In this document: piece by piece, positions 18,104 to 32,762 of the stretch | How the letters are laid out: every line of letters starts with the position of its first letter | How positions within the stretch are numbered: the first letter of the stretch is position 1 | Assembly (NCBI GenBank): GCA_008501635.1 | Contig: QQUJ01000012.1 | Location: 1 to 64,000 of the forward strand | DNA from: Pseudomonadota bacterium | Lineage (GTDB): Bacteria > Pseudomonadota > Gammaproteobacteria > QQUJ01 | Direction of reading: 5' to 3' | Length of the DNA: 64,000 nucleotides | Translations under genes and position numbers: made by a program | Notes under the pieces: model-generated | Told to the model about the DNA's origin: nothing | What the model saw: only the letters and a program-made list of their open reading frames with translations | The model's database searches: none

Positions 18104-21100
18104 GATAAGTGCTTGACCCGCTCGTGAGAGCGGGTGATGCGTCGCTGCCGGGTTTGATATGTCGTGGGCAACCGGTTTCAATCCGCACCCGCTCGTGAGA
18201 GCGGGTGATGCCAATGTATTTTGGGTCATGCCCCCGAAACCGTTGGTTTCAATCCGCACCCGCTCGTGAGAGCGGGTGATGCCGTCCGGCGGCAGCGGAT
18301 TTAACGCTGTACTCAGGGTTTCAATCCGCACCCGCTCGTGAGAGCGGGTGATGCTTATCAGCAGCAAAAAGTGTTCAAGACGCAACTCGTTTCAATCCGC
18401 ACCCGCTCGTGAGAGCGGGTGATGCACAACCTGGAACTCGTATCGCGCGGCGAACTCATGTTTCAATCCGCACCCGCTCGTGAGAGCGGGTGATGCAGGC
18501 GGCTATCTATCTTGATCGTTGGGTGCAGATGTTTCAATCCGCACCCGCTCGTGAGAGCGGGTGATGCGACAAAGCTCGGCTACCCCTACGCCGATACGAT
18601 GGTTTCAATCCGCACCCGCTCGTGAGAGCGGGTGATGCCCACGCTGTACGTCACCGCTACCGCCACCGACTCGTTTCAATCCGCACCCGCTCGTGAGAGC
18701 GGGTGATGCCTTCGCGCTTCGTTCGTTCCGTTCTGGTCCAAGACGTTTCAATCCGCACCCGCTCGTGAGAGCGGGTGATGCCCGACATCACCCACACGCC
18801 GCAGGCGATGCCGAGGTTTCAATCCGCACCCGCTCGTGAGAGCGGGTGATGCGTCGCTAATCGCGCGAATATTGCTGGGTTTACCGCGTTTCAATCCGCA
18901 CCCGCTCGTGAGAGCGGGTGATGCATGACGGACGATGCTACCTCGCAGATCAATCAGCGGTTTCAATCCGCACCCGCTCGTGAGAGCGGGTGATGCGTGA
19001 GCGATCACCGTTGTTGATGAGCAGGAAAATGTTTCAATCCGCACCCGCTCGTGAGAGCGGGTGATGCTGGATTTGCCCAGCACTTCGCCGTCTGATCGTT
19101 GGTTTCAATCCGCACCCGCTCGTGAGAGCGGGTGATGCATAGTCCGTATACGTCCCGCTCGATGTCCCATAGTGTTTCAATCCGCACCCGCTCGTGAGAG
19201 CGGGTGATGCGGCACCCAAAGCGCCCGCGCCAACCGCACCCGCAGTTTCAATCCGCACCCGCTCGTGAGAGCGGGTGATGCACAGGTAATACTGGAGGAT
19301 CAGCTGCGCAAATAGGTTTCAATCCGCACCCGCTCGTGAGAGCGGGTGATGCAGGCCGACCTCCGAGCATGCGCCACCGATGTTTGTGTTTCAATCCGCA
19401 CCCGCTCGTGAGAGCGGGTGATGCTTTGCGCGTCGCCGTTGTGTGCGGAGTGAATCACGTTTCAATCCGCACCCGCTCGTGAGAGCGGGTGATGCTGACG
19501 GGGCGGCCGGCGTCATCCCATTCCCGCCAGTTTCAATCCGCACCCGCTCGTGAGAGCGGGTGATGCGTGCGGTTGATTACCGCCGGAGCGACGGCTTTAG
19601 AGTTTCAATCCGCACCCGCTCGTGAGAGCGGGTGATGCCCGCCCAGTCTCGGCTCGCGAGGGCGCCGATGACTGTTTCAATCCGCACCCGCTCGTGAGAG
19701 CGGGTGATGCGGCACCCAAAGCGCCCGCGCCAACCGCACCCGCAGTTTCAATCCGCACCCGCTCGTGAGAGCGGGTGATGCACAGGTAATACTGGAGGAT
19801 CAGCTGCGCAAATAGGTTTCAATCCGCACCCGCTCGTGAGAGCGGGTGATGCGGTAAGTGGACATGGGTGCAGCCATGCGTTGTCGGGTTTCAATCCGCA
19901 CCCGCTCGTGAGAGCGGGTGATGCTGTTCGATGCCGTCGAACGGCGCCTGGTGCACAAGTTTCAATCCGCACCCGCTCGTGAGAGCGGGTGATGCAGGCG
20001 CCGCTGGTGGCGCCCATCACGGATCTCGATGTTTCAATCCGCACCCGCTCGTGAGAGCGGGTGATGCTTGGTCGTTGATCCAGTTCACCGACACCACGCC
20101 GGTTTCAATCCGCACCCGCTCGTGAGAGCGGGTGATGCAGGCGAATGGTCGGGATCTTCCGGGTGGGAATTAGTTTCAATCCGCACCCGCTCGTGAGAGC
20201 GGGTGATGCATCACCGACGACAATCAGGTAAGCCTGGGATCACCTGTTTCAATCCGCACCCGCTCGTGAGAGCGGGTGATGCTCTTGCCGGTCTGGCGCG
20301 CGAACATACCCGCCTTGTTTCAATCCGCACCCGCTCGTGAGAGCGGGTGATGCCTTCGAGCTTGCGGTTTTCGGCGATCATCTCTTTGTTTCAATCCGCA
20401 CCCGCTCGTGAGAGCGGGTGATGCGATCGGGCAACTCGTCGCAGCGGCAGGGCTTCCAGTTTCAATCCGCACCCGCTCGTGAGAGCGGGTGATGCCTGGG
20501 AGGCGGAACTGCTCCTCGAGCGCGAGGTGTTTCAATCCGCACCCGCTCGTGAGAGCGGGTGATGCCTCTGTGCGCACGATGGTGATGGCGCGTGAGCGCG
20601 TTTCAATCCGCACCCGCTCGTGAGAGCGGGTGATGCGCGGTACCGAGGACGTCACGCTTGAGATGATCAAGTTTCAATCCGCACCCGCTCGTGAGAGCGG
20701 GTGATGCGATCAGGCTGTCGTTGTCGACATAGAGATCGGCTTGTTTCAATCCGCACCCGCTCGTGAGAGCGGGTGATGCGCATGGCCCCAAGGTAGGGGC
20801 CATGCGGGAGGGGGTTTCAATCCGCACCCGCTCGTGAGAGCGGGTGATGCGACAGATCAGCCGCTGCGACTACAGAGACAGTTTGTTTCAATCCGCACCC
20901 GCTCGTGAGAGCGGGTGATGCGTTGACGCTGGTAGCGGGGCTTCTTGATCTTCTGGTTTCAATCCGCACCCGCTCGTGAGAGCGGGTGATGCCCATCGAC
21001 GATCATGTATTCACCAAAGATCATAACGTTTCAATCCGCACCCGCTCGTGAGAGCGGGTGATGCACCTTGGTTTCGGGATGAACGTCGTAAATCCCCGAG

Positions 21101-21280
21101 TTTCAATCCGCACCCGCTCGTGAGAGCGGGTGATGCAGGTGTTGACCTTCACGTAATCATCGGCACCATCTGTTTCAATCCGCACCCGCTCGTGAGAGCG
21201 GGTGATGCAATGTCGCCGCTGAATATGGCGATGGAGATTGGCAGTTTCAATCCGCACCCGCTCGTGAGAGCGGGTGATGC
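18104..21280 (-). CRISPR. Type I-C CRISPR array: 44 full 37-nt repeats plus one degenerate repeat, 44 spacers
   Basis: The first full repeat is at 18175-18211 and the last at 21244-21280, with spacers of 34-36 nt. On the plus strand each repeat starts GTTTCAATCCGCACCCGC and ends AGAGCGGGTGATGC. Transcription is inferred on the minus strand: repeats then end CGGATTGAAAC, the 11-nt 5' handle of type I-C crRNAs, after a 9-bp stem CACCCGCTC/GAGCGGGTG with loop TCAC. The left-most repeat (18104-18140) keeps only its last 24-25 nt, which marks the trailer. The leader is therefore on the right, beside cas2. All full repeats appear identical. Two spacers occur twice (19211-19244 = 19711-19744; 19282-19315 = 19782-19815). 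Protospacer sources cannot be identified here. Confidence 0.98.
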
Positions 21281-21458
21281 TCCGTTTTCGCAACCTCTGG
21301 CTGCGAATACAGAAATACACCTGAATGCGCGAACCTCGACAGATGGTGACGAAGTAATCGTGCGTTTCGGCGTTCAAGAACTGCCAAATTGTTAAAGAAC
21401 AATAGGTTCGCGTATCCGCGAACCTCCCCGCAATCTAGCGATACTGAGGGTTCGCGCG
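21281..21458 (-). promoter_or_regulatory. CRISPR leader with boxA antitermination motif
   Basis: The 178-bp AT-richer region between cas2 and the first repeat on the transcribed strand. At 21386-21401 the minus strand reads TGTTCTTTAACAATTT, essentially the rRNA boxA (TGCTCTTTAACAATTT), about 105 nt upstream of the first repeat. BoxA recruits NusB-S10 and has been reported to protect CRISPR arrays from Rho termination. The transcription start cannot be placed from sequence alone. Confidence 0.75.
21404..21425. promoter_or_regulatory. 9-bp hairpin in CRISPR leader, downstream of cas2
   Basis: AGGTTCGCG (21404-21412), loop TATC, CGCGAACCT (21417-21425). On the minus strand it lies 33 nt after the cas2 stop and directly before boxA. 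It could end the cas2 transcript, act as a protein site in the leader (for example for the integration complex), or be a boxB-like stem next to boxA. The following ATTGTTCTTT is only a weak T tract. Confidence 0.5.
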
Positions 21459-21749
21459 TCATACAACGAGCGTTCCTTCGAAGTCGACCGATCGGAAATT
21501 CCCGTACTCCCTAACTCGCAATTCTGTTGGTTCAGTGATGCGGTAGAAGCGCAAGTTGTCCTCCGACTCGTCGATCTCTACGAGAAGCGACCGTTCCAGT
21601 TCCTCGAATTGCATTTCATTGACCTGGCACTCGAAGACCGATTTCTGAACTCGTTGTCCGACAGATTCACACACCTTGGCGACACGGCGCAGGCGACGGC
21701 GCCCTGCCCGCGTTTCCGTCGACACATCATAGGTTACGATAATTAGCAC
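21459..21749 (-). CDS. cas2: CRISPR-associated endonuclease Cas2
   Basis: 96 aa, ferredoxin-like. It starts [13 protein letters not shown], with the conserved Asp8 after strand 1, then [20 protein letters not shown] and SVFECQVNE, typical of I-C Cas2. Cas2 dimerises and bridges two Cas1 dimers in the spacer-integration complex. It lies 9 bp after cas1 and is followed by the leader and array. Confidence 0.97.
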
Positions 21750-21758
21750 TATGGATTC

Positions 21759-22793
21759 CTATTTGGCCAGGTAGGGCACATAGCCTTCCATCTCGCCTCG
21801 CACGGTGCGTGCCATGAAGCGCGCTTGCATCAACGGCAACAACACGATGGGCATGCTGGTTTCCAATATCGGGTGCGTTACCTCGTCCTGTCGGCGCTCC
21901 TGCCAAGCGGTCACGACCTTGCGACGACCCTGCTCGTTGAGCATCACCGCGCCACCCTCACGTTCGTCAAAGTCGCCAACCGTAACCTGACCCCGATTAA
22001 TCAACGTCAGTGCCAAACGATCGGCAATAACCGAACGAAACTCCTCTTGCAGATCCAGTGCGAAGGCAGCGCGACCGGGGCGTACGGCATGCAGGAAACC
22101 CAGTTGCGGATCCAAGCCCGCCACCTCTAACGCCGAACGACAACTATTCATTAGCATGGAGTAGAGAAATGAAAGCAACGCGTTGAAACGATCTCGCGGT
22201 GGCCGGCGGGTTCGCCCGTTGAGCACAAAATACTCACGTGCGTTGGGTTTGATAACCAGGTTTAGCGCTTCGAAATAACCTCGGGCCGCCTCCCCTTCAA
22301 TGCCGCGCAGGGTGTCCAGGTCCGGGGCTTCCTTGGTGGCTCGCAAGGAAGCAGCGAGGTTTTGGGCTTTGCGAGTTAAGGTTTCCGCCTCTTTCAGCGT
22401 CGATGCCTCGCGAGCTCCCCGCAAAACCACGGATCGGCTGTTCTTCAGTTTGCCCGCCACCACGGCACGAGAGACTTTCACGACAAAGGCGCGGTCACCG
22501 GCCGCCCGGTGTTGGGCCTGGCGCAGCAGTATGTTGCCCGAAACCGGCCCTTCCAAGCGAGCCTTGAATCTCCCAGAATCTTCCAATAGAACCAACGACT
22601 TACCTTCATCCGCCAAGCGATGGATGAGAAAAGGCGACACCATGACGTTGCCAAAGCAGACCAATCCCTCCAGATGGTGCAGCGGTACTTGCAGGCGCTT
22701 TTCCTTTTCCACATCTATGCGCACGGTATTGTTCTCCAAGTGCGCATAGGCGCCCGGGGTCATGACATATAAAGTGTTGAGAATGGTGTGCAT
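21759..22793 (-). CDS. cas1: CRISPR-associated integrase Cas1 (type I-C)
   Basis: 344 aa, normal for I-C Cas1. It begins MHTILNTLYVMTPGAY, a hallmark of the subtype. Metal ligands are recognisable as Glu166 (GIEGEAARGYF), His235 (LGFLHAVRPG) and Asp247/Glu250 (ALDLQEEFR). It inserts spacers at the leader-proximal repeat with Cas2 and Cas4. It is separated from cas4 by 721 bp containing an antiparallel toxin-antitoxin pair, and so needs its own promoter or read-through. Its start codon lies inside the -35/-10 spacer of the antitoxin promoter. Confidence 0.97.
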   Translation of the reverse strand: MHTILNTLYVMTPGAYAHLENNTVRIDVEKEKRLQVPLHHLEGLVCFGNVMVSPFLIHRLADEGKSLVLLEDSGRFKARLEGPVSGNILLRQAQHRAAGDRAFVVKVSRAVVAGKLKNSRSVVLRGAREASTLKEAETLTRKAQNLAASLRATKEAPDLDTLRGIEGEAARGYFEALNLVIKPNAREYFVLNGRTRRPPRDRFNALLSFLYSMLMNSCRSALEVAGLDPQLGFLHAVRPGRAAFALDLQEEFRSVIADRLALTLINRGQVTVGDFDEREGGAVMLNEQGRRKVVTAWQERRQDEVTHPILETSMPIVLLPLMQARFMARTVRGEMEGYVPYLAK

Positions 22794-22823: not shown

Positions 22824-22834
22824 CGGAGATGGTT

Positions 22835-23140
22835 ATGGACTTCATTACTGCACGAGAATTGCGCGCCGAATCGGCCAAGGTGTGGGAGAAGCTGGAAGCC
22901 GGCGAGGAGATCGTCGTTACCCGTAACGGTAAGCCGTTTGCCGTGATTGTCCACACCGATCCGCAAGAACTGGAGAGTACGCTGCGCGCCTTGCGCTGGG
23001 CGAGGTTCGACCGCCTGCTGGCGGAACAGCACAAGCGGGCCGCTGAATTGGGACTCGACAAAATGACCATGGATGAGATCGACGCCGAAATCGCGGCGGC
23101 ACGCAAGGAAAGGCGCGAGCGCGATGCGGGTAATCGTTGA
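22835..23140 (+). CDS. Phd/YefM-family antitoxin
   Basis: About 101 aa. MDFITARELRAESAKVWEKL and EEIVVTRNGKPFAVIVH are the DNA-binding, dimerising Phd/YefM fold. The C-terminal half (TLRALRWARFDRLLAEQHKR and on) is helical and charged and would wrap the toxin. ATG 22829 is also in frame, but GGAG (22825-22828) is spaced correctly only for ATG 22835. The gene overlaps the PIN toxin gene by 17 bp. It sits antisense inside the cas operon, between cas4 and cas1. Confidence 0.9.
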   Translation: MDFITARELRAESAKVWEKLEAGEEIVVTRNGKPFAVIVHTDPQELESTLRALRWARFDRLLAEQHKRAAELGLDKMTMDEIDAEIAAARKERRERDAGNR

Positions 23141-23525
23141 TACCAGCGTCTGGGTTTCGGCCTTCCTCACCCCCCACGGCACCCCCGGCAAGCTGCTGCA
23201 CGAGGTTGAACAGAAACGACTGATCCTGGTATACGACATAACCATCGAAGCCGAGTATCGGGACGTGCTGAGCCGCCCGCGGTTCAACATCGCCCCGGTG
23301 CTGGTGGCCGAGTTTCTGGCGCGACTGCGTGAAGATGGACAGCGAATCGCACCACCACCTGTAGCGCCACTCCGCCTGCCAGACCCTGATGACGCCCCTT
23401 TCATCGCTGCCGCCTTGGCGGCGACCTGTCCTATCATCACCGGCAACAGGCGCCACTTCCCGCCTGAATGCGGCGTGGAAGTGCTGAGCCCCGCACAATG
23501 CCTTTCCCGCCTGTTCACGGAGTGA
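23124..23525 (+). CDS. PIN-domain toxin of a type II toxin-antitoxin pair
   Basis: About 133 aa of the putative PIN-family toxins (COG1569). It starts MRVIVDTSVWVSAFL, with catalytic Asp in VDTS. It has YRDVLSRPRF and an acidic block LPDPDDAPFIAAALA, then IITGNRRHF. PIN toxins are Mg-dependent ribonucleases, often cutting tRNA or rRNA. ATG 23124 opens the domain; the frame also extends upstream to 23073, inside the antitoxin gene, without domain support. The 3' end overlaps the 3' end of cas4 by 11 bp in convergent orientation. Confidence 0.88.
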   Translation: MRVIVDTSVWVSAFLTPHGTPGKLLHEVEQKRLILVYDITIEAEYRDVLSRPRFNIAPVLVAEFLARLREDGQRIAPPPVAPLRLPDPDDAPFIAAALAATCPIITGNRRHFPPECGVEVLSPAQCLSRLFTE

Positions 23526-24153
23526 TCTCCGTGTCATCAACCTCGAAAAGCTCCTTTGCCGCATGCTGCTGCCGCCCCCGCATGGCCACAGCCTCTGGCT
23601 GACAGATCTCCTTCAACGAACACTCCCGGCAACGGCTGTCATTGACTGGTGGCGGCAAATTTCCTGAAGCCAACATGGTACGAATGGCTGCAGCCATCTC
23701 CCCGACCAGCCGGACCAAATCCACCGTCACCTCCACCTCGCGCCGCCGCCGGCTGCTGGCGTGGTAAATAGCGCCGCGGTCTACCGGTCGACCCATCATC
23801 TCCGCAAGACATAGTGCTTGCGCGGCGAGTTGAAGATCATCATGCACCGCCCGCCGCTTGCGGCCATGCTTGAACTCCACTGGGTAAACCGTCCCGTCGG
23901 GATGGAACTCCACCACGTCGGCCTTGCCGATGAGACCCAACTGCTCCGACCAAATCGGCAAGGCCCGCTCAATCCGCACCCCAGCCCGCACCTCGTAACC
24001 CGGAGTATCCACCAAATGGTGCACCGCCTGCCCCCGCGCCGTGTGGATGTTCTCCGCGAACGCCTGTTCGAGATGAATCAACCCACACTGGCGCGGACAA
24101 TAGGCCCAGTGTTGGAGGGCGGAGATGGGGACGGCATCATCCTCCCCCGCCAT
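23515..24153 (-). CDS. cas4: CRISPR-associated exonuclease Cas4
   Basis: A 212-aa RecB-like nuclease with a 4Fe-4S cluster. Cluster cysteines are Cys19 or Cys23 (WAYCPRQCGL) and the C-terminal trio CRECSLKEIC. Nuclease motifs are visible as GLIGKADVVEF and YPVEFKHGRKR, with QLAAQALCLAEMMG (QhxxY-like helix). In type I-C, Cas4 selects PAM-bearing prespacers and passes them to Cas1. ATG lies 2 bp after the cas7c stop. Its 3' end overlaps the opposing PIN toxin gene by 11 bp. Confidence 0.95.
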   Translation of the reverse strand: MAGEDDAVPISALQHWAYCPRQCGLIHLEQAFAENIHTARGQAVHHLVDTPGYEVRAGVRIERALPIWSEQLGLIGKADVVEFHPDGTVYPVEFKHGRKRRAVHDDLQLAAQALCLAEMMGRPVDRGAIYHASSRRRREVEVTVDLVRLVGEMAAAIRTMLASGNLPPPVNDSRCRECSLKEICQPEAVAMRGRQQHAAKELFEVDDTEITP

Positions 24154-24155
24154 CG

Positions 24156-25040
24156 CTACCCGATACGCCGGATCAGGTTGACACCCGCTGGTAAGCTGGC
24201 CTCGGCTACGGCAACCTCATAGTCGGTGAAGTTGCGCGGCACCGTCACGCCGCCCCTGATCTGTAGCTTTATACGCTCAAACAACGCGTGGGCCGGAGCG
24301 TTGCCCAGTTCTGAGTCATGTTTGAACACATAGAGGCCACGCGTGCTCATCTCCCCACGGGCAGCGGAACGATCGTGTTCGAACATCTGCTCCAGCGCCT
24401 GCCACAGCAGTTCCAGATCCTCTTCGGAAAATCCGGTCTGCTTGGCGAGGAAGCTGGAAACGAAACCGTGCGCCAAGTAGAGGCCGTAAGGCACCGTGTG
24501 CTTGCGACCCATGGTGCGATTGTCGCCTTCCTGTTTCTCCGCCTCGGCCTCGGTCGCCACCGCCATACGGGTAATGGAATGCTCTTGGGCAACGATGGGA
24601 TCGATGGAGCGTGCGAAAGTGAGCTGTACTGGACCGCGTACCTGACCGCAATTGACTCCGGTGGACATAACAGCGCCAAAGGTACGCACGTCGAAGAAGT
24701 TGCGACACATCCACGCTTTGGCCTCATCAGCGGCCTCGCCTCCTTTGCGTTTCTTATCATCACCAGCCAACAAGTCTTCGCGGCCAATACCGACATAGGC
24801 GCGCTTGTGCTGGTTGTTTAAAACCGCTTTCTCCTTTACGTAGATCTCGAACGGCGGCAGCTCTCCCTTTACCAGACCGACAAAGTTGCGCACCTTGCGT
24901 TTGAGCGATACGTCGGTGACCAAACCAAATCCGGTTTCGGCGTCCAGGCGCGGCAGGTTGCCGGCGTCCGGATCGCCGTTGGGATTGCCGTCTTTCACGT
25001 CAAACAACAGCACAAAGTCGTAGCGATTGGTCAGGCTCAT
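24156..25040 (-). CDS. cas7c: Cascade backbone protein Cas7 (Csd2, type I-C)
   Basis: 294 aa. It opens [20 protein letters not shown], followed by [20 protein letters not shown], the Csd2/Csh2 signature. Several copies polymerise along the crRNA spacer to form the type I-C effector backbone. It overlaps the cas8c stop by 4 bp and is followed 2 bp later by cas4. Confidence 0.96.
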
Positions 25041-25411
25041 TGGGTTCCCTCCTGGTATTTAGTGGCTTCAGATTTAGTAAAAAAGGCTTGGCGTTGGTGG
25101 TAATAACCGAGTGCGAAACGGCCCTGCTCCGGCAATGGCAAGTGCCGGGGAAAATCGTCCAGCCCGTCAATGATCTCGCCTAGCAGTTTTTCCATTTGCA
25201 CGGCGCGCCCCAGGCTAAGCTTGCCGATATGGTGGTTCTTCAATCGCAGCAAGGTTGTGAATACCGCCACCGGCGTGCTGGAGGCCGCGCCATAGTAGCG
25301 GTCGCGAATGGTGGCATTGAGACCGGGGCTGGCCTCTTCCTGTATCTTCTCCAGCGCGGCGAACAGGCGGCCCAGACGGTAGGCTGGGTTGGGATTTTCG
25401 ATGTCGAGCAT
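25037..25411 (-). CDS. cas11c: Cas11c small subunit, nested in the 3' end of cas8c
   Basis: An internal ATG at 25411, in frame with cas8c, is preceded by GAGAGGGAG (25421-25429) with 9-nt spacing, a good internal ribosome site. It would give a 124-aa protein starting [20 protein letters not shown], equal to the Cas8c C-terminal helical domain. Independent translation of Cas11 from cas8c is established for type I-C systems, with the start at this same [14 protein letters not shown] region as I recall it. The nested start is inferred here from the RBS and this homology. Confidence 0.75.
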
Positions 25412-26785
25412 GATCTTGAACTCCCTCTCTTCTTGGTTTCGGGTGCGGTTTGCATATCGAATGTTTCGATTCAGGCACGCCTTGATGGCCGCCGCCCGCG
25501 GATAGGTCACCTTCTGTTCCGCCCGACAGCGCTGCACCGCGGCGTTGAGCAGTGTCGCCGGATAGGGCAGATCCTCCAGGATGGCGCGCATGACTTCGCC
25601 GCCGAGTTTAGGCGGGATGTTATCGGCCTTGCCTAGCACCGCACAGGCCGTCAGCAGACGGAACAGCGAGAGATGTTCCGGATCGTGGAGTGCTCGGGCA
25701 ACGCGGATGTCGTCAAAATGACGACGCAGCCGTCGCGCCAGATTAAGCGCCGGGGCCGTCTCCCAGAAGCGGATGCTGATTCGCGCGGCATTGGGCGCCA
25801 GACCCAGCACATGGAAACGGGTATCGGCGTCACCCAAGGAGAAGTTGCCAGAATCGACCGACTTGTAGAGTGCCTTCAAAGCCGTCACGCCACGATCCGG
25901 ATCGTCCTTGGGCGGTTCTCCGAACAGGTCCGGGACCATGGATTCCAGATCGTGAGGTTCCTCGGCCCAGAACACCGTGGAGGCATCACCTACCTGGACA
26001 CGCTGACGAGACTCCTTTGCCAGCAGATGGTTCAACGCCGTGGTGTAGGCAAATACGGCAGACCTTCCGATAGGAGCGTTTTCGCCCTGGGCCTTGCCGT
26101 ATGAGCGGAAGGCATTCAGGTTGAAGGAAACGATATTCGCGCCAGAGGTCTGGGCGCCCCATACACCTTTGATGGCCGGGTGAAGCCGCTCGATGGCGCC
26201 TTCCCCGCCCGTTACCAGACAAACGCAGTGCGCATCATCCGCATCAGAGGCGGTATCTGTGGCGGCAACCACTGCCGAACGTTGGCATATCAGCCCCACA
26301 TCGCTGTTGAGGCGGAATGTCATCAGTGGAGTGCCCACGCGCACCTCTTCCCAGATTGGCAACGGCTCGAAGTGCTCCAGATCAAGCGTATTCAGAAAGG
26401 CTTGGACGGCCTTTATCCCGGCATCGCTGCGCACCGCCTCCGGCAATGCCTCTATACGCGCGAGAAAGGCCGCATGCTGCTCGGCGACGCGTTCCGGCTT
26501 GCCACGGGTATCGACACCCAGCACATACTCGGCCGTATCCCACAACAGATTGGCCGCTACACCGGAGGTCTTCTTCACTCCTTGCGGCACCAGGAAGCGC
26601 TGCGCCGTCCTCTTCTTGCCGTCGCCCGAACGGGTATCGGCAATGTTTACCAACCGACCCTGCACATCGATTTCGATGATAAATGGAATTTCCTTCTCCT
26701 CCAGTCCGAAAGCCGGTAGACGGTTCTTTGGATCGGAGTCGGCTTGCTTGCGCCGGTAGTAATCGTTGAGCGCTTGCAGGATCAT
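25037..26785 (-). CDS. cas8c: Cascade large subunit Cas8c (Csd1)
   Basis: 582 aa, typical for Csd1. The start [16 protein letters not shown] is characteristic. It also has [14 protein letters not shown] and [20 protein letters not shown], a conserved Csd1 block. Cas8c recognises the PAM and recruits Cas3. The C-terminal ~124 residues double as Cas11c. It overlaps cas5c and cas7c by 4 bp on either side, so translation is coupled. Confidence 0.96.
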
Positions 26786-27447
26786 CCGCGCACCTCCTCG
26801 CTATCCCAGGCGGGAACGTTGACCCCCCCATTCTCCAGATGAGCACGGAAGAAGCGCGGCGCCGGGTCTGCCGGATCAGTGAAGTCCATGTCATAAAGCA
26901 TGAAGCCGAGATCGCGACTCTCAGTGATCGGTGCAGGTTCGCCATCAACGCTCTTCATCAAGCGAAAACCGGCAGCGAACTCCCGGCACCCCAGGTAGGG
27001 CTGGTTGATGCACTGCCCCTTGCCCGCACGCCGCTCGAACATCTCGTGGTACTTGGCGGCGTTGAATTGTGGATCACGCCCGGCAATGAACTCCAGATCG
27101 GCATGGAGCCGGTAGGCCACGTCACGCAGGAACAGTCCGGCGCGCTGCTGGCGGTCCTCCTCGATATAGAGCGCCAGATCGCCCGTGCCGGTCTTCATCG
27201 TCGTCTCCACGTTGCGAGTGGAGACGACACTGGCCACCTCGTTGCGCCGCAGGCTGATCCAGCGGATCGGCTTGAGCACTTCGATCCTGCGCAGGTGCCA
27301 ACGGATGGCCGGCTTCCACAGGATCGCCTCGAACATCGCCCGCGCAGCAGAGGGCGTGATGACGTCGTAGCTCACCCGCTCCACCTTCATTTCCGGGCGG
27401 GTGAAGCAGGCGAAGTCACCGGAGACTTCAAGACAGTAAGTTTTCAT
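26782..27447 (-). CDS. cas5c: Cas5c (Cas5d), crRNA-processing endoribonuclease of type I-C
   Basis: 221 aa. It opens MKTYCLEVSGDFACFTRPEM, with KVERVSYDVITPSAARAMFE, the standard Cas5d start. QQRAGLFLRDVAYRLHADLE and CINQPYLGCREFAAGFRLM follow. In I-C systems, which lack Cas6, Cas5 cuts the repeat at the base of the hairpin, leaving an 11-nt 5' handle. The repeats here end with such an 11-nt handle. The gene starts 9 bp after the cas3 stop and overlaps cas8c by 4 bp. Confidence 0.96.
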   Translation of the reverse strand: MKTYCLEVSGDFACFTRPEMKVERVSYDVITPSAARAMFEAILWKPAIRWHLRRIEVLKPIRWISLRRNEVASVVSTRNVETTMKTGTGDLALYIEEDRQQRAGLFLRDVAYRLHADLEFIAGRDPQFNAAKYHEMFERRAGKGQCINQPYLGCREFAAGFRLMKSVDGEPAPITESRDLGFMLYDMDFTDPADPAPRFFRAHLENGGVNVPAWDSEEVRG

Positions 27448-27456
27448 ATCCCTCCC

Positions 27457-29739
27457 TCATAAAACGAGTCCAGCCGCAGCGGCTGATATCTCCTCCGTTT
27501 GCAGACCAACTACCGAATCGTAAAGTAGCGAATTTACTTGGACGAACAACCCGGGCATCAACTCTTCGATGTCACCTTGATTCACGAGGCGCTGCGCGTC
27601 GCGCATCCGGACATTGACCGTATAGCGCTGCAGCTTCCGCATTAGCCAGCGTTGAGGTCCCTCCTTGTGCAGGGTGCCAATCAGGGTATCTATGGTGCCG
27701 TCCTTGCCATCACGCCCACGGTAGAGCACAAGGACCGGCACGGTGTCGCCGTCCTTGATGAGCCGGAAGCGTTCGGCGGCGGTGCGGAAATTGACGGCCA
27801 GCTTTCCGCCGTCCACCTCCAGCAGCTTACCGATACCCTCTGCATCCAGCTCGCAGTCGTGATATAGGCGCTCGAAATAGCGACTGAACAGCGCGCGGTC
27901 CAGCACATCACCCGAATAGCCGTGAAGTACCGATTTGCAGGCATCCTCACCGGTGCGCAACATTCCCAGCGGTGCTGGCTGCGGCGGCACAAAAACTTTG
28001 ACGACCCCCATCCTTCCCTCGGCGTTCAACCACCCTTCGCGGTTGCAGCGGCCCGCCGCCTGGGCTATGGAGTCGAGACCGGCCAGGGCACGATAGACCA
28101 CCGGAAAATCGAGATCGACGCCGGCCTCGACCAGCTGCGTACTCACCACTCGCGTCGGTGCACCCGTCTTGAGGCTGGCCTTGATGTCGTCGATGACCGC
28201 TGAGCGGTGAGCGCCGCACATCAGGGCGGAGAGGTGCAGCGTGCCCGGCAGCATGAATCGGTGCAGTTCCCTGGCGTGTTTACGTGTATTGACGATAGCT
28301 AGCACGCTGTCGTGGGCCGCCATCTCTCTGGCCAGCACCTCCCATGCCGCAGGTGTATTCAAATCGCTCGGCAGGTTCACTTCGACGCGCTTCAAGTCAC
28401 GGTAAAGGGTATCGGGATCGGTGATGATTTCGCGCACGTTGTCCAAGCCGCGCCGGCTTTTCGCCGGGTCGAAGTATTCGCGTGTACTCAAGGCCGGCTG
28501 GGTCGCAGTGGACAGCACGACCGACACGCCGTAGTGATCGGTGAGCAGCCTGAGCGTGTCGAGAATGGGCTGAAGAAAGTGCGGGTCGAGCAATTGCGCC
28601 TCATCCAGCACCACGACGCTATCAACGATATTGTGCAACTTGCGGCAACGGGAAGTGCGCGCTGCGAACAGCGATTCGAAGAACTGGACGTTCGTGGTGA
28701 CAACGATAGGCGCGTCCCAGTTTTCACACGCCAGGCGCGACTTGTGACTCTCCCGCTCAGGATCGGATTCCGCATTGCTGTGATGCTCGATTACCGCGTC
28801 GCCGAAGATCGAACGATAGATATCCGCCGTCTGCTCAATGATGCTTGTATACGGTATGACGTAGATCACGCGGCGCTTGCTGTGACGTTTAGCGTGTTCC
28901 AGCGAGAAGGCCAGACTGGAGAGCGTCTTGCCGCCGCCGGTCGGCACCGTAAGGGAAAATAGACCGGGCGGCTCGGCAGCCTTGGCGCGACATTGAACCA
29001 GTATCTCGGCACGGAGTTTGTTAACCAGTGTGTTTGGGGCGTCCGCGGTAAACATGGCCATGTGATGGTCTAACATGTCGAGCAGTTGCGGAATCTCCGG
29101 CCAGTCACCGCGCAGACTACCCTTTTCCGAATTCATGTAGGCTTCGGTATCGAGAAAATCGGCGTCCACCAGGCAGGAAAAGAGCATCCGGATCCACAAC
29201 GCGAATCCCTCTTTTCCACCTGGAACGGCACGCAGATCCGCGGAGAATGTACCGGGGTCGAGAATGGTATCGGGAGGAGACTCGACCAGCGCCTCGTTCA
29301 GCTCAGCGCGGCTGTCATCCAACTCCAGACGGTGCTGCAGGCTGGAATTCTCCGAGTGCCAATCAGACAGCCCTGCGTGGTGGCCGGCAATCAGGTAGGC
29401 AAGCACCCGCCCTTTCTCACCAAATCTATCGCATGCCAGCAGCGCCCCCGCCGTGGAGTGCGGCGCTTTACCCGCTTGTCCCTCTATATGGGCATCGGCT
29501 TCGAAGCCGCTGACGGTGCGGATATAGCGTTGAAAGCGCGCTCGAAACTTTCCCAGATCGTGCCATAAACCTGCCACGTGCGCCCACTCCTTCGCCCCGA
29601 AGCTTTCACCGTAAGCTGCGGCCAGCTCAGCCACTCCTAACAGATGTGCTTCCAGGTCATGCGGTTCGCGCCAGATGCCGTTGGCGTCCTTAGTAGCATG
29701 CGCAATTGGTTTAGGGCGTCCTTCCAAAGAAAGCTCCAT
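27457..29739 (-). CDS. cas3: CRISPR-associated helicase-nuclease Cas3 (HD + DExH)
   Basis: 760 aa. The N-terminal HD nuclease has HDLEAHLLGV, WHDLGKF (His60-Asp61), PHSTAGA and AGHHAGLSD. The helicase has Walker A VPTGGGKT (265-272), DEAQ (379-382), LSTATQPALS (motif III) and, near the end, QAAGRCNREG (motif VI). It unwinds and degrades the target strand after Cascade binding. An in-frame GTG or TTG upstream is possible, but ATG 29739 follows GGAGGG with proper spacing and lies 2 bp after the stop of the 73-aa gene, so the two are translationally coupled. Confidence 0.96.
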   Translation of the reverse strand: MELSLEGRPKPIAHATKDANGIWREPHDLEAHLLGVAELAAAYGESFGAKEWAHVAGLWHDLGKFRARFQRYIRTVSGFEADAHIEGQAGKAPHSTAGALLACDRFGEKGRVLAYLIAGHHAGLSDWHSENSSLQHRLELDDSRAELNEALVESPPDTILDPGTFSADLRAVPGGKEGFALWIRMLFSCLVDADFLDTEAYMNSEKGSLRGDWPEIPQLLDMLDHHMAMFTADAPNTLVNKLRAEILVQCRAKAAEPPGLFSLTVPTGGGKTLSSLAFSLEHAKRHSKRRVIYVIPYTSIIEQTADIYRSIFGDAVIEHHSNAESDPERESHKSRLACENWDAPIVVTTNVQFFESLFAARTSRCRKLHNIVDSVVVLDEAQLLDPHFLQPILDTLRLLTDHYGVSVVLSTATQPALSTREYFDPAKSRRGLDNVREIITDPDTLYRDLKRVEVNLPSDLNTPAAWEVLAREMAAHDSVLAIVNTRKHARELHRFMLPGTLHLSALMCGAHRSAVIDDIKASLKTGAPTRVVSTQLVEAGVDLDFPVVYRALAGLDSIAQAAGRCNREGWLNAEGRMGVVKVFVPPQPAPLGMLRTGEDACKSVLHGYSGDVLDRALFSRYFERLYHDCELDAEGIGKLLEVDGGKLAVNFRTAAERFRLIKDGDTVPVLVLYRGRDGKDGTIDTLIGTLHKEGPQRWLMRKLQRYTVNVRMRDAQRLVNQGDIEELMPGLFVQVNSLLYDSVVGLQTEEISAAAAGLVL

Positions 29740-29741
29740 GG

Positions 29742-29963
29742 TCACCCTCCGACTATCCATCCCAAGAGAAATGCCAATAACACCAGTTGCCGACCTTCCT
29801 TGCCCGCCTTCTCCAACTCCTTCACGAGCTGTTCTTCTTCGTCCACCTCAACCCAGCCGGCAGGCCCGTACAGTCCATCACCGAACGCGGCGAGTAGCTC
29901 ACTGAAATCACCCTCGAAACTGATCTCCACGGTCGGGTGTTTTGATTCCTTGTCAGACACCAC
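29742..29963 (-). CDS. 73-aa acidic protein with hydrophobic C-terminus, directly before cas3
   Basis: Family not recognised. It starts at GTG 29963 (MVSDKESKHPTVEISFEGDF). The sequence is acidic up to KELEKAGKEGRQ and ends in a 14-15 residue hydrophobic stretch, LVLLAFLLGWIVGG. This suggests a tail-anchored or amphipathic membrane peptide; the segment is short for a full bilayer span. The stop codon is 2 bp before the cas3 ATG, and the sequence GGAGGGTGACC serves as both stop and cas3 ribosome site. Its GTG overlaps the end of an upstream 30-aa frame. Tight coupling suggests a real operon member; a CRISPR role is inference. Confidence 0.6.
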   Translation of the reverse strand: MVSDKESKHPTVEISFEGDFSELLAAFGDGLYGPAGWVEVDEEEQLVKELEKAGKEGRQLVLLAFLLGWIVGG

Positions 29964-30045
29964 TGAGCACCTTCACCCGGTTTCGAAAGATGCGCGACTT
30001 TCTTGGTCGCCCAACGCGGGTGGTGCTGTAACGGCAACGGTTCAT
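29953..30045 (-). CDS. 30-aa very basic peptide at the head of the cas operon
   Basis: ATG 30045 follows AAAAGGA with a 7-nt spacer, one of the best ribosome sites in the locus. The product begins MNRCRYSTTRVGRPRKSRIF and carries 8 Arg and 2 Lys with no acidic residue. GRPRK resembles an AT-hook core. Its stop TGA overlaps the GTG start region of the 73-aa gene (GTGTCTGA), so it could be a leader peptide that couples translation into the operon, or a small nucleic-acid-binding protein. No homologue is recognised, and it is too short for certainty. Confidence 0.45.
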   Translation of the reverse strand: MNRCRYSTTRVGRPRKSRIFRNRVKVLSGV

Positions 30046-30087
30046 GACGTGTTCCTTTTATTTTGCTGTGAACTTCCCTATTTACCA

Positions 30088-30115
30088 GCCGGGAGCCTCA
30101 ATTGATGAGGCCGGC
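30088..30115. promoter_or_regulatory. Hairpin in the cas operon 5' region
   Basis: GCCG-gga-GCCTCA (30088-30100), loop ATTGA, TGAGGC-CGGC (30106-30115): ten pairs with one 3-nt bulge. It lies between the PRiA4b/SEC-C gene stop (30157) and the 30-aa frame start (30045). Without a T run it is not a classic terminator. It could attenuate read-through into the cas genes or be an operator. I cannot place a convincing -35/-10 pair in this 111-bp gap. Confidence 0.4.
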
Positions 30116-30156: not shown

Positions 30157-31650
30157 CTAATGCAAACAACACTTCTTGTACTTCTTGCCACTACCACAGG
30201 GGCAGGGATCGTTACGGCCAATCTTCGGTGTTTCGCGCACATAGGGTGCAGCCCAGTCCTGGAAAGGCAAAACCTCTCCTTGCTGCTCGTTTTCAGGCCT
30301 TCGCGCCTCTTCTTCGGCCCAGCGTTCCTGGCGGGCTCTAATCACATCGGGGTCGTGGAACGCCCATGGATTGGTGAAGCGTTCCCACTCCGGTGCGTCT
30401 ACGCCCCGGGCGTAGGAGTCTTCGATATCACGTGCTTCGAAGTGTTTACCGAGACCCGTTTGTCGTGAGGCGAGCATTTCGAGCAACAGCCGGTGACGGG
30501 GACGGGGCGAATCGAGCAACTCACCGCCCAGGTTCAGGCGAAGCGTCCATTCCTCCTGCTCGTCGGCAGCCATCGCAGCGGCCCAATCGAGCGCCGTTTC
30601 GAACACACTTTCACCGCCGCGTTGGGCGAGGGCGAGATAGGTCTCGGCGGCGTTGATGCGGATGTACCAGTCGTGCGCGCGATCTTCCGCCAAGCGCCGC
30701 AGCTCGGGCGCCAGGGAAACCGGTTTATTAGTGTAAAGCGCCGGCCAATTCCCAGCCAACCAATCCTGCGTGTTGTCGTCATCCTCCCTGTCCAGCCGAC
30801 GCATCAGCGCCACCAACTCCCGACCTGCGTTTTCGGTGTCGATCAGACCGAGGATCATGGCGGCGTGCTGGCGCAGCCACCAGTTGCCATCGTCGATATC
30901 GTCGCTCCAAAAGGCCGGTGCGGAGAGCACGCTTGCCAGGGCCTGCACCATGGCATCACCGCGTGCGGCGCAAGCATCGATCAGATTGCGTGGAGCGCGA
31001 TCGCCCGAGCGGCGCAAGATATCGATCAATGCCGGTTCATCGAGGGTGGCAAGTTCGGCGTCGGTAAGCAGTTCCACGGGTGAAAATCCGATGAGTTCGT
31101 CCGCTTCGGCTTCTTCCAGCATCGCGTTGACCTCCTGCAGATCGAAGGCATCGGGATCGAAGTCGTTGCCCAGCCAGTCGCGGGTCTCTTCGTGCTCTTC
31201 GTCATCCAAATCAGCCAGAATTCGGAGCAACCGTTCGTAGCTCGGGATACCGCCGCAGTCCTCGGGCGGGCAAGCGCGCTCACCGGCAAGACAGCGCGGG
31301 TAGCGGTCGCCCGGATCGAGCGGACGCACCTTTTCGATCTTGAGTTCGTGATCCCAGCCGTCTCCGAAATCGTACTCGTAATAGACGGTTTCGCCTTCGG
31401 CAGCAACACCGTTGAGACGCACACCCGCCTCGTCTCGCAGACCGTCGAAATATTCGGAATCGCGCCCACTGTAGACGACCCCTCCTACGCGAAAGGCGTG
31501 TAGATGGCTGTCGGTCCAGCCCATCGCAATCTGCAGGATGACATGCAGTTCTTCGAGCGTGGTGTTGGCTTCCACTTCGATGCGCCGCCAGATGGGAGGC
31601 GCGCTCCCGGTGAGGGTGACTTTGATTCGGTAGATCATGGGTTGTGACAT
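30157..31650 (-). CDS. PRiA4b ORF-3-like protein with C-terminal SEC-C zinc motif
   Basis: 497 aa. The N-terminal ~190 residues form a plasmid pRiA4b ORF-3 domain ([51 protein letters not shown]). A helical, HEAT-like acidic middle (about 200-400) follows. The C-terminus, [21 protein letters not shown] (477-497), is a SEC-C zinc-binding motif. The PRiA4b domain is widespread on mobile DNA but has no known reaction. SEC-C motifs bind zinc and often partner proteins. The gene lies between the WYL regulator and the cas operon on the same strand; whether it belongs to the CRISPR system is unknown. Confidence 0.85.
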
Positions 31651-31790
31651 GGCGTGGCGCTCGTTGAGTTTCCAATCGATACCATGAGATCAATAATCGT
31701 GTCCCTAACCCCCACCCTCTCGACTCGTGTTCCAGACTCCGTTTACCTCCTCCATCCCTGGAGTCGTCCCAACCCGGGAGGGGGTGTGCT

Positions 31791-32762
31791 TCACACGCTT
31801 TTATAAACAGCGAGCGCTGATAGTAGGCGTTTTACCACCTCGCGCCGCAACTTCGCCGGACGCAGCACTTCGACATCCGCGCCATACTTGAGAATATCCA
31901 TGATCAGCTCGCGCGGATCGCTGTAGGGGATGCGCAGCTCCACAGCGCCGTCTTCCAAGACTTTCGATTCCTGCTGCGGGTGCCACTGCTCGTCGGCCAC
32001 CCAGCGCGCGGCGGCGCTGGTGAAACGCAGTACGGCGGTGTGCTTGGGTTCGCCGGCAAAGATGCCATAGGCGGAGGCGAAGTGGCGATCGAGCCGCTTT
32101 TCGTCGATCTCTTTTGCGGTGCCCTCAACCGCGACGATATGCAAACGGTCGAGCGAAAAACTGCGCAGCGCCCGGCGCAGGTGACACCACGCGTCGAGAT
32201 ACCAGTTGGCACGGTAGTGCACCAGCCGCTGCGGGGAGAGCCAGCGCTCGGTGATCGCGTCGCGTGCGCGTCCATGATAGAGCACCTTGAAACGAGCGCG
32301 CTCGACTGTGGCGGTGGCGACCTTGCGAAACACGTCCATATCCACCGGGCGCGGCGCCATTTGCAAAATACGCACGCGTTCGAGCAGTTCGCGGTTACCC
32401 GCCTTGCGATGTGCAAGCAAGTGCTCGATACGTTGTCGTAACGGAATAAGCTCGTCTTCGAGCAGGCTGGGCTGCGTCGGTGTCAACAACCGGTGAGCGG
32501 CAAGCAGGGCATGAAGTTCGGACGGGTTAAACCACAATCCCGGCAGCTCAAACAGCGCACCGGCGTTGTCATCGAGTCGATAGCCGTTGTATTCGCGGTC
32601 GTATTGGACGGGCGCCCCGAGATAGGTGCGGAGATCGTCGATGGCCCGCTGGACCGTGGCGCGCGAGCACTCCAGTTTTTCCTGTAACGTCTCACGCGAA
32701 ATGGGCGTGCGGCGACTGCTCAGGATCTTGTGCAGTGCATAGATGCGATCGAACCGGTCCAT
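31791..32762 (-). CDS. WYL-domain transcriptional regulator (YafY-like) next to the CRISPR locus
   Basis: 323 aa. The N-terminal winged helix (about 1-60: FDRIYALHKILSSRRTPISR, SRATVQRAIDDLR) is an HTH_11 type. The WYL domain (about 145-235) has RFKVLYHGRARDAI, LSPQRLVHYRANWYLDAWCH (WYL triad as NWYLDAWC) and LRSFSLDRL. A C-terminal WCX-like extension follows (DPRELIMDILKYGADVEVL). WYL proteins sense nucleic acids or nucleotides and are repeatedly found beside CRISPR and other defence loci, some as repressors. It is the upstream-most gene of the minus-strand run leading into cas3. Confidence 0.9.
   Translation of the reverse strand: MDRFDRIYALHKILSSRRTPISRETLQEKLECSRATVQRAIDDLRTYLGAPVQYDREYNGYRLDDNAGALFELPGLWFNPSELHALLAAHRLLTPTQPSLLEDELIPLRQRIEHLLAHRKAGNRELLERVRILQMAPRPVDMDVFRKVATATVERARFKVLYHGRARDAITERWLSPQRLVHYRANWYLDAWCHLRRALRSFSLDRLHIVAVEGTAKEIDEKRLDRHFASAYGIFAGEPKHTAVLRFTSAAARWVADEQWHPQQESKVLEDGAVELRIPYSDPRELIMDILKYGADVEVLRPAKLRREVVKRLLSALAVYKSV

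Follow-up and report, generated by a model that had tools for sequence, protein, structure and literature searches.

A 73-codon frame at the head of a type I-C cas operon, probably a gene and on balance a lineage-restricted orphan coupled to cas3

The cas operon of type I-C systems is composed of seven genes in the canonical order cas3-cas5c-cas8c-cas7-cas4-cas1-cas2, and the locus described here has all seven in that order, together with a CRISPR array. Two features set it apart from the canonical operon: an extra 73-codon frame 5′ of cas3, termed here ORF73, and a toxin-antitoxin pair placed antisense between cas4 and cas1. In the WYL-headed type I-C loci of Thiobacillus type (L062, L066, L071, L090, L091 and L098) the gene for a WYL regulator lies 5′ of cas3 on the same strand, as it does here; the difference is that there it abuts cas3, whereas here a PRiA4_ORF3/SEC-C gene and ORF73 intervene. 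WYL1 with Cas13d is a known case of a WYL regulator associated with a CRISPR system (PMC6547453), and WYL regulators of CRISPR systems are listed in PADLOC. A further set of loci (L041, L061, L068 and L129) also has a non-core gene immediately 5′ of cas3, but that gene encodes a HIRAN protein, i.e., a member of a recognised recurring family, while ORF73 is unrelated to it in sequence and is without relatives. Finally, there are leader frames of translational coupling, which stop a few nucleotides from the next start and contain the next ribosome site; typical leader peptides are shorter than ORF73. Within the window, i.e., the whole stretch of 64,000 nt that was analysed, the locus comprises the following features:

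19530–21301, unstranded, CRISPR array, 25 repeat copies listed
21459–21749, minus strand, cas2
21759–22793, minus strand, cas1
23515–24153, minus strand, cas4 (family searches)
24156–25040, minus strand, cas7/csd2 (family searches)
25037–26785, minus strand, cas8c/csd1 (family searches)
26782–27447, minus strand, cas5c (family searches)
27457–29739, minus strand, cas3 of the Cas3c type, HD plus helicase (family searches)
29742–29963, minus strand, ORF73, acidic 73-aa frame with a GTG start and without known family
29970–29973, minus strand, AAGG, ribosome-site-like, 6 nt 5′ of the ORF73 GTG
29953–30045, minus strand, 30-aa basic frame MNRCRYSTTRVGRPRKSRIFRNRVKVLSGV, pI 12, with ribosome site AAAAGGA at 7 nt
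30095–30111, unstranded, inverted repeat GCCTCA-attga-TGAGGC (GCCTCAATTGATGAGGC) in the gap between the PRiA4_ORF3 gene and the 30-aa frame
30157–31650, minus strand, PRiA4_ORF3 domain plus SEC-C motif protein, the upstream neighbour (family search)
31791–32762, minus strand, HTH-WYL-WCX regulator (family search)

ORF73 starts with the GTG at 29963, which is immediately followed by another GTG, and ends with TGA (29742–29744), leaving a gap of 2 nt to the cas3 ATG at 29739. The cas3 ribosome site, GGAGG, is located within the codons GGA GGG of the last two glycines of ORF73, with a spacing of 6 nt. Both the 2-bp distance and the use of the end of the frame as the cas3 ribosome site had been pointed out in the first-pass annotation and were confirmed in the sequence; the coordinates, length and sequence that it gave for the frame were matched exactly on re-reading. 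A longer version of cas3, starting from the ATG at 29760 (MDSRRVTMEL), would overlap ORF73 by 19 nt, and of the two starts the ATG at 29739, with its GGAGG, has the better ribosome site. The stop-start junction between ORF73 and cas3 is similar to the cas5-cas8c and cas8c-cas7 junctions in the window. With its stop so close to the next start and the cas3 ribosome site inside it, ORF73 resembles a translationally coupled leader frame, and it differs from such frames by its length and its gene-like composition. No terminator-like site was detected on the minus strand from the PRiA4_ORF3 gene to cas3, nor was any RNA family found in the cas3 leader.

The question whether such a frame is a gene can be approached from its position and from its composition. 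When leaders of the same composition were simulated, 6.9% of them had a frame of 73 aa or more whose end fell within 40 nt at the start of cas3. In this genome, a frame of at least 60 aa ends at 25 of the 131 gene starts that have upstream regions free of called genes (these 25 include some real genes), and in other cas3 loci, e.g., L043, L063, L081, L104, L124 and L130, unrelated frames of 60–176 aa end at cas3. Since frames of this kind are not rare by chance, the position of ORF73 is weak evidence for a gene. Composition was scored by a frame-specific Markov model, for which 350 long genes out of 710 kb of sequence from this genome served as the training set; the genome was sampled as about 650 kb of stretches in place of its whole length. 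ORF73 scored +0.057 bits/nt, which places it at the 34th percentile of the real gene segments, while the remaining five frames of the same stretch scored from −0.13 to −0.56 bits/nt. A score as high as that of ORF73 was reached by 1.6% of the 1154 spurious frames taken from inside genes and by 6% of the 335 intergenic ones. The comparison was judged by these percentiles; Gaussian Bayes factors, which were slightly against a gene, were set aside because they are distorted by outliers of the training set, whose mean is far under the median. In a plain codon model the synonymous component of ORF73 was −0.03 (6.5th percentile of gene segments), which is not gene-like; what signal there was lay in the amino acids encoded and not in the choice among synonymous codons. 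Plus-strand frames over the same stretch (29644–30105 and 29675–29905) were also considered as genes and were rejected, as they score as non-coding.

ORF73 thus combines frame-specific, gene-like composition with a ribosome site, the two properties expected of a protein-coding frame, and to judge from these it is probably a genuine gene; that it is translated seems fairly likely. The competing explanation, under which ORF73 is open by chance within an untranslated cas3 leader, gives rise to no stable product and serves no function, is possible, if rather doubtful. It draws on the frequency of such frames in simulated leaders, on the unrelated frames that end at cas3 elsewhere, on the synonymous codon use and on the failure of every search to find a relative, but it has to account for a Markov score typical of genes and rarely reached by spurious frames, as well as for the AAGG at 6 nt and the tight junction with cas3.

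Relatives of ORF73 were searched for broadly. Pfam, NCBIfam, PHROGs and PADLOC gave no match at E values up to 10, and comparison with PDB sequences returned only two de novo designed proteins with E about 1, i.e., chance matches. Equally negative were the searches of 72,556 plasmids and of 50,697 phage records, the pattern scan of viral contigs in IMG/VR, and those of 369 genomes of the class and 299 of the phylum, and 46 genomes with the nearest Cas3 relatives (a search that lacked a positive control of its own). Weak matches in single genomes (E 0.006–0.09) lie inside frames of 316–2104 aa, are at the level expected when hundreds of genomes are searched, and were rejected. The region 5′ of cas3 was inspected in 99 other loci, namely those with at least 284 nt upstream, taken from the class (20) and from GTDB contigs (80), two sets with an overlap of one locus or more (entered as L050 and as L117). 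No relative was present in any of the 99 (phmmer with all filters off gave nothing below E 2), and Cas3 is 65–72% identical in many of these loci. The statement of the first-pass annotation that the protein matches no Cas family familiar to it is borne out, as it went unrecognised by all family libraries tried. The CRISPR accessory role proposed there gained no support, for the conservation of the frame before other cas3 genes on which it depended is absent in these 99 loci. Because the searched genomes include no other of the same order, the orphan status of ORF73 may reflect missing relatives.

The protein itself is acidic, as had been noted earlier, with pI 4.3 and 15 D/E residues against 6 K/R. 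Its C-terminus, QLVLLAFLLGWIVGG, holds a hydrophobic tail some 15 residues long, in which three of the final six are glycine. The 15-residue tail has a Kyte-Doolittle mean of 2.06 and −7.4 kcal/mol on the octanol scale; over 19 residues the highest Kyte-Doolittle mean reached is 1.09, under the customary cut-off of 1.6 for a membrane span. A tail anchor was taken to need a C-terminal hydrophobic span of about 18–20 residues, and the tail of ORF73 appears short for that; by these measures the case for a membrane role is weak. An AlphaFold model made from the ORF73 sequence alone is helical with low confidence (pLDDT 59, pTM 0.25) and, given these values, unsuited to a fold search.

Several candidate functions were rejected on the basis of these searches: a conserved type I-C accessory (no relative in the 99 loci and no match to a Cas or defence family), a phage or anti-CRISPR protein (no relative in phage records, IMG/VR or PHROGs), and a partnership with the PRiA4_ORF3 gene (25 PRiA4_ORF3 loci showed no relative beside them). 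A narrower proposal is that ORF73 is a dedicated Cas3 accessory restricted to its clade, e.g., an acidic brake or a membrane tether. The frame does adjoin cas3 and is coupled to it by position, and the product is acidic, tentatively helical and hydrophobic at its C-terminus; yet it is missing where Cas3 itself is well conserved, its hydrophobic stretch looks too short for a membrane span, and neither a structural nor a family match is available, which makes this proposal unlikely. More specific, and very unlikely, is a clade-specific Cas3 binder that restrains or localises Cas3, so that helicase-nuclease and brake would be co-translated. It is also conceivable that ORF73 is a member, diverged too far for recognition by sequence search, of a known family of small proteins, be it antitoxin-like, of phage origin or otherwise. 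Small proteins easily drift past detection, and the locus has other mobile-type genes, the Phd/PIN pair between cas4 and cas1, but even a permissive threshold brought no match in the four family libraries and the PDB matches are of the chance kind; we regard this origin as quite unlikely.

The explanation to which we incline, by a narrow balance, is that ORF73 is a real orphan gene, translated and confined to its lineage, which stands first in the cas operon of a type I-C system that is ordinary in other respects. It occupies a variable slot between the upstream WYL regulator and cas3. A ribosome ending ORF73 would sit on the cas3 ribosome site and could re-initiate on cas3, and in this way translation of ORF73 may help to set the level of Cas3, as the spacing suggests. 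From the arrangement of the junction we infer that translational coupling to cas3, in cis, is the best-supported effect of ORF73. The protein, in turn, may have a job particular to its lineage or may do nothing essential to immunity; nothing found speaks for a conserved role as an effector, as a sensor or at the membrane. Should ORF73 be translated, it would illustrate on a small scale the recruitment of an orphan gene to the front of a CRISPR operon, from where it could adjust the output of Cas3. On the present findings it defines no shared CRISPR component.

Between ORF73 and its upstream neighbour lie two small elements. The 30-aa basic frame, preceded by a strong ribosome site, runs at its stop 11 nt into the start of ORF73; its score of −0.042 bits/nt indicates a composition that is not gene-like, and a family-library search with it gave no match. 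The inverted repeat at 30095–30111 occurs in one copy in the window and could be an operator at which the WYL regulator acts or, alternatively, a hairpin.

The slot 5′ of cas3 is variable in these bacteria, and WYL, PRiA4_ORF3/SEC-C and HIRAN genes recur in it. In several of the type I loci from the class (L171, L172, L175, L178, L179, L180, L181 and L189), genes for a WYL regulator and a PRiA4_ORF3 protein (often with SEC-C) are found together, 5′ of cas3 or of a Cas3-like helicase, as at 30157–32762 on the minus strand of the window. Among 25 loci of the class with PRiA4_ORF3/SEC-C relatives, a WYL regulator adjoins in 10, and cas3 or a Cas3-like helicase lies within a few kb in 8, which include I-C and other type I systems. 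The WYL regulator and PRiA4_ORF3 genes are a candidate for an unrecognised CRISPR-linked pair; no literature on PRiA4_ORF3 with cas3 was found, which reflects the limit of the literature searched as much as a result. HIRAN-domain genes stand directly 5′ of cas3 in at least five I-C loci. These small genes occur in L041, L044, L061, L068 and L129, and one lies near a Cas3-like helicase in L180; some of the products have a Tat-like N-terminus (MTRRDFL).

The toxin-antitoxin pair in the gap between cas4 and cas1 consists of a gene for a Phd/YefM-type antitoxin (22829–23140, plus strand) and a PIN_3 toxin-like gene (23073–23525, plus strand), both antisense to the operon. Of 51 other loci, all but one have 233 nt or less between cas4 and cas1, and therefore the pair would not fit in those 50. 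In L065 (Hydrogenophilales), relatives of the antitoxin and toxin (66% and 52%, respectively) are located directly 3′ of cas4 in the same orientation.
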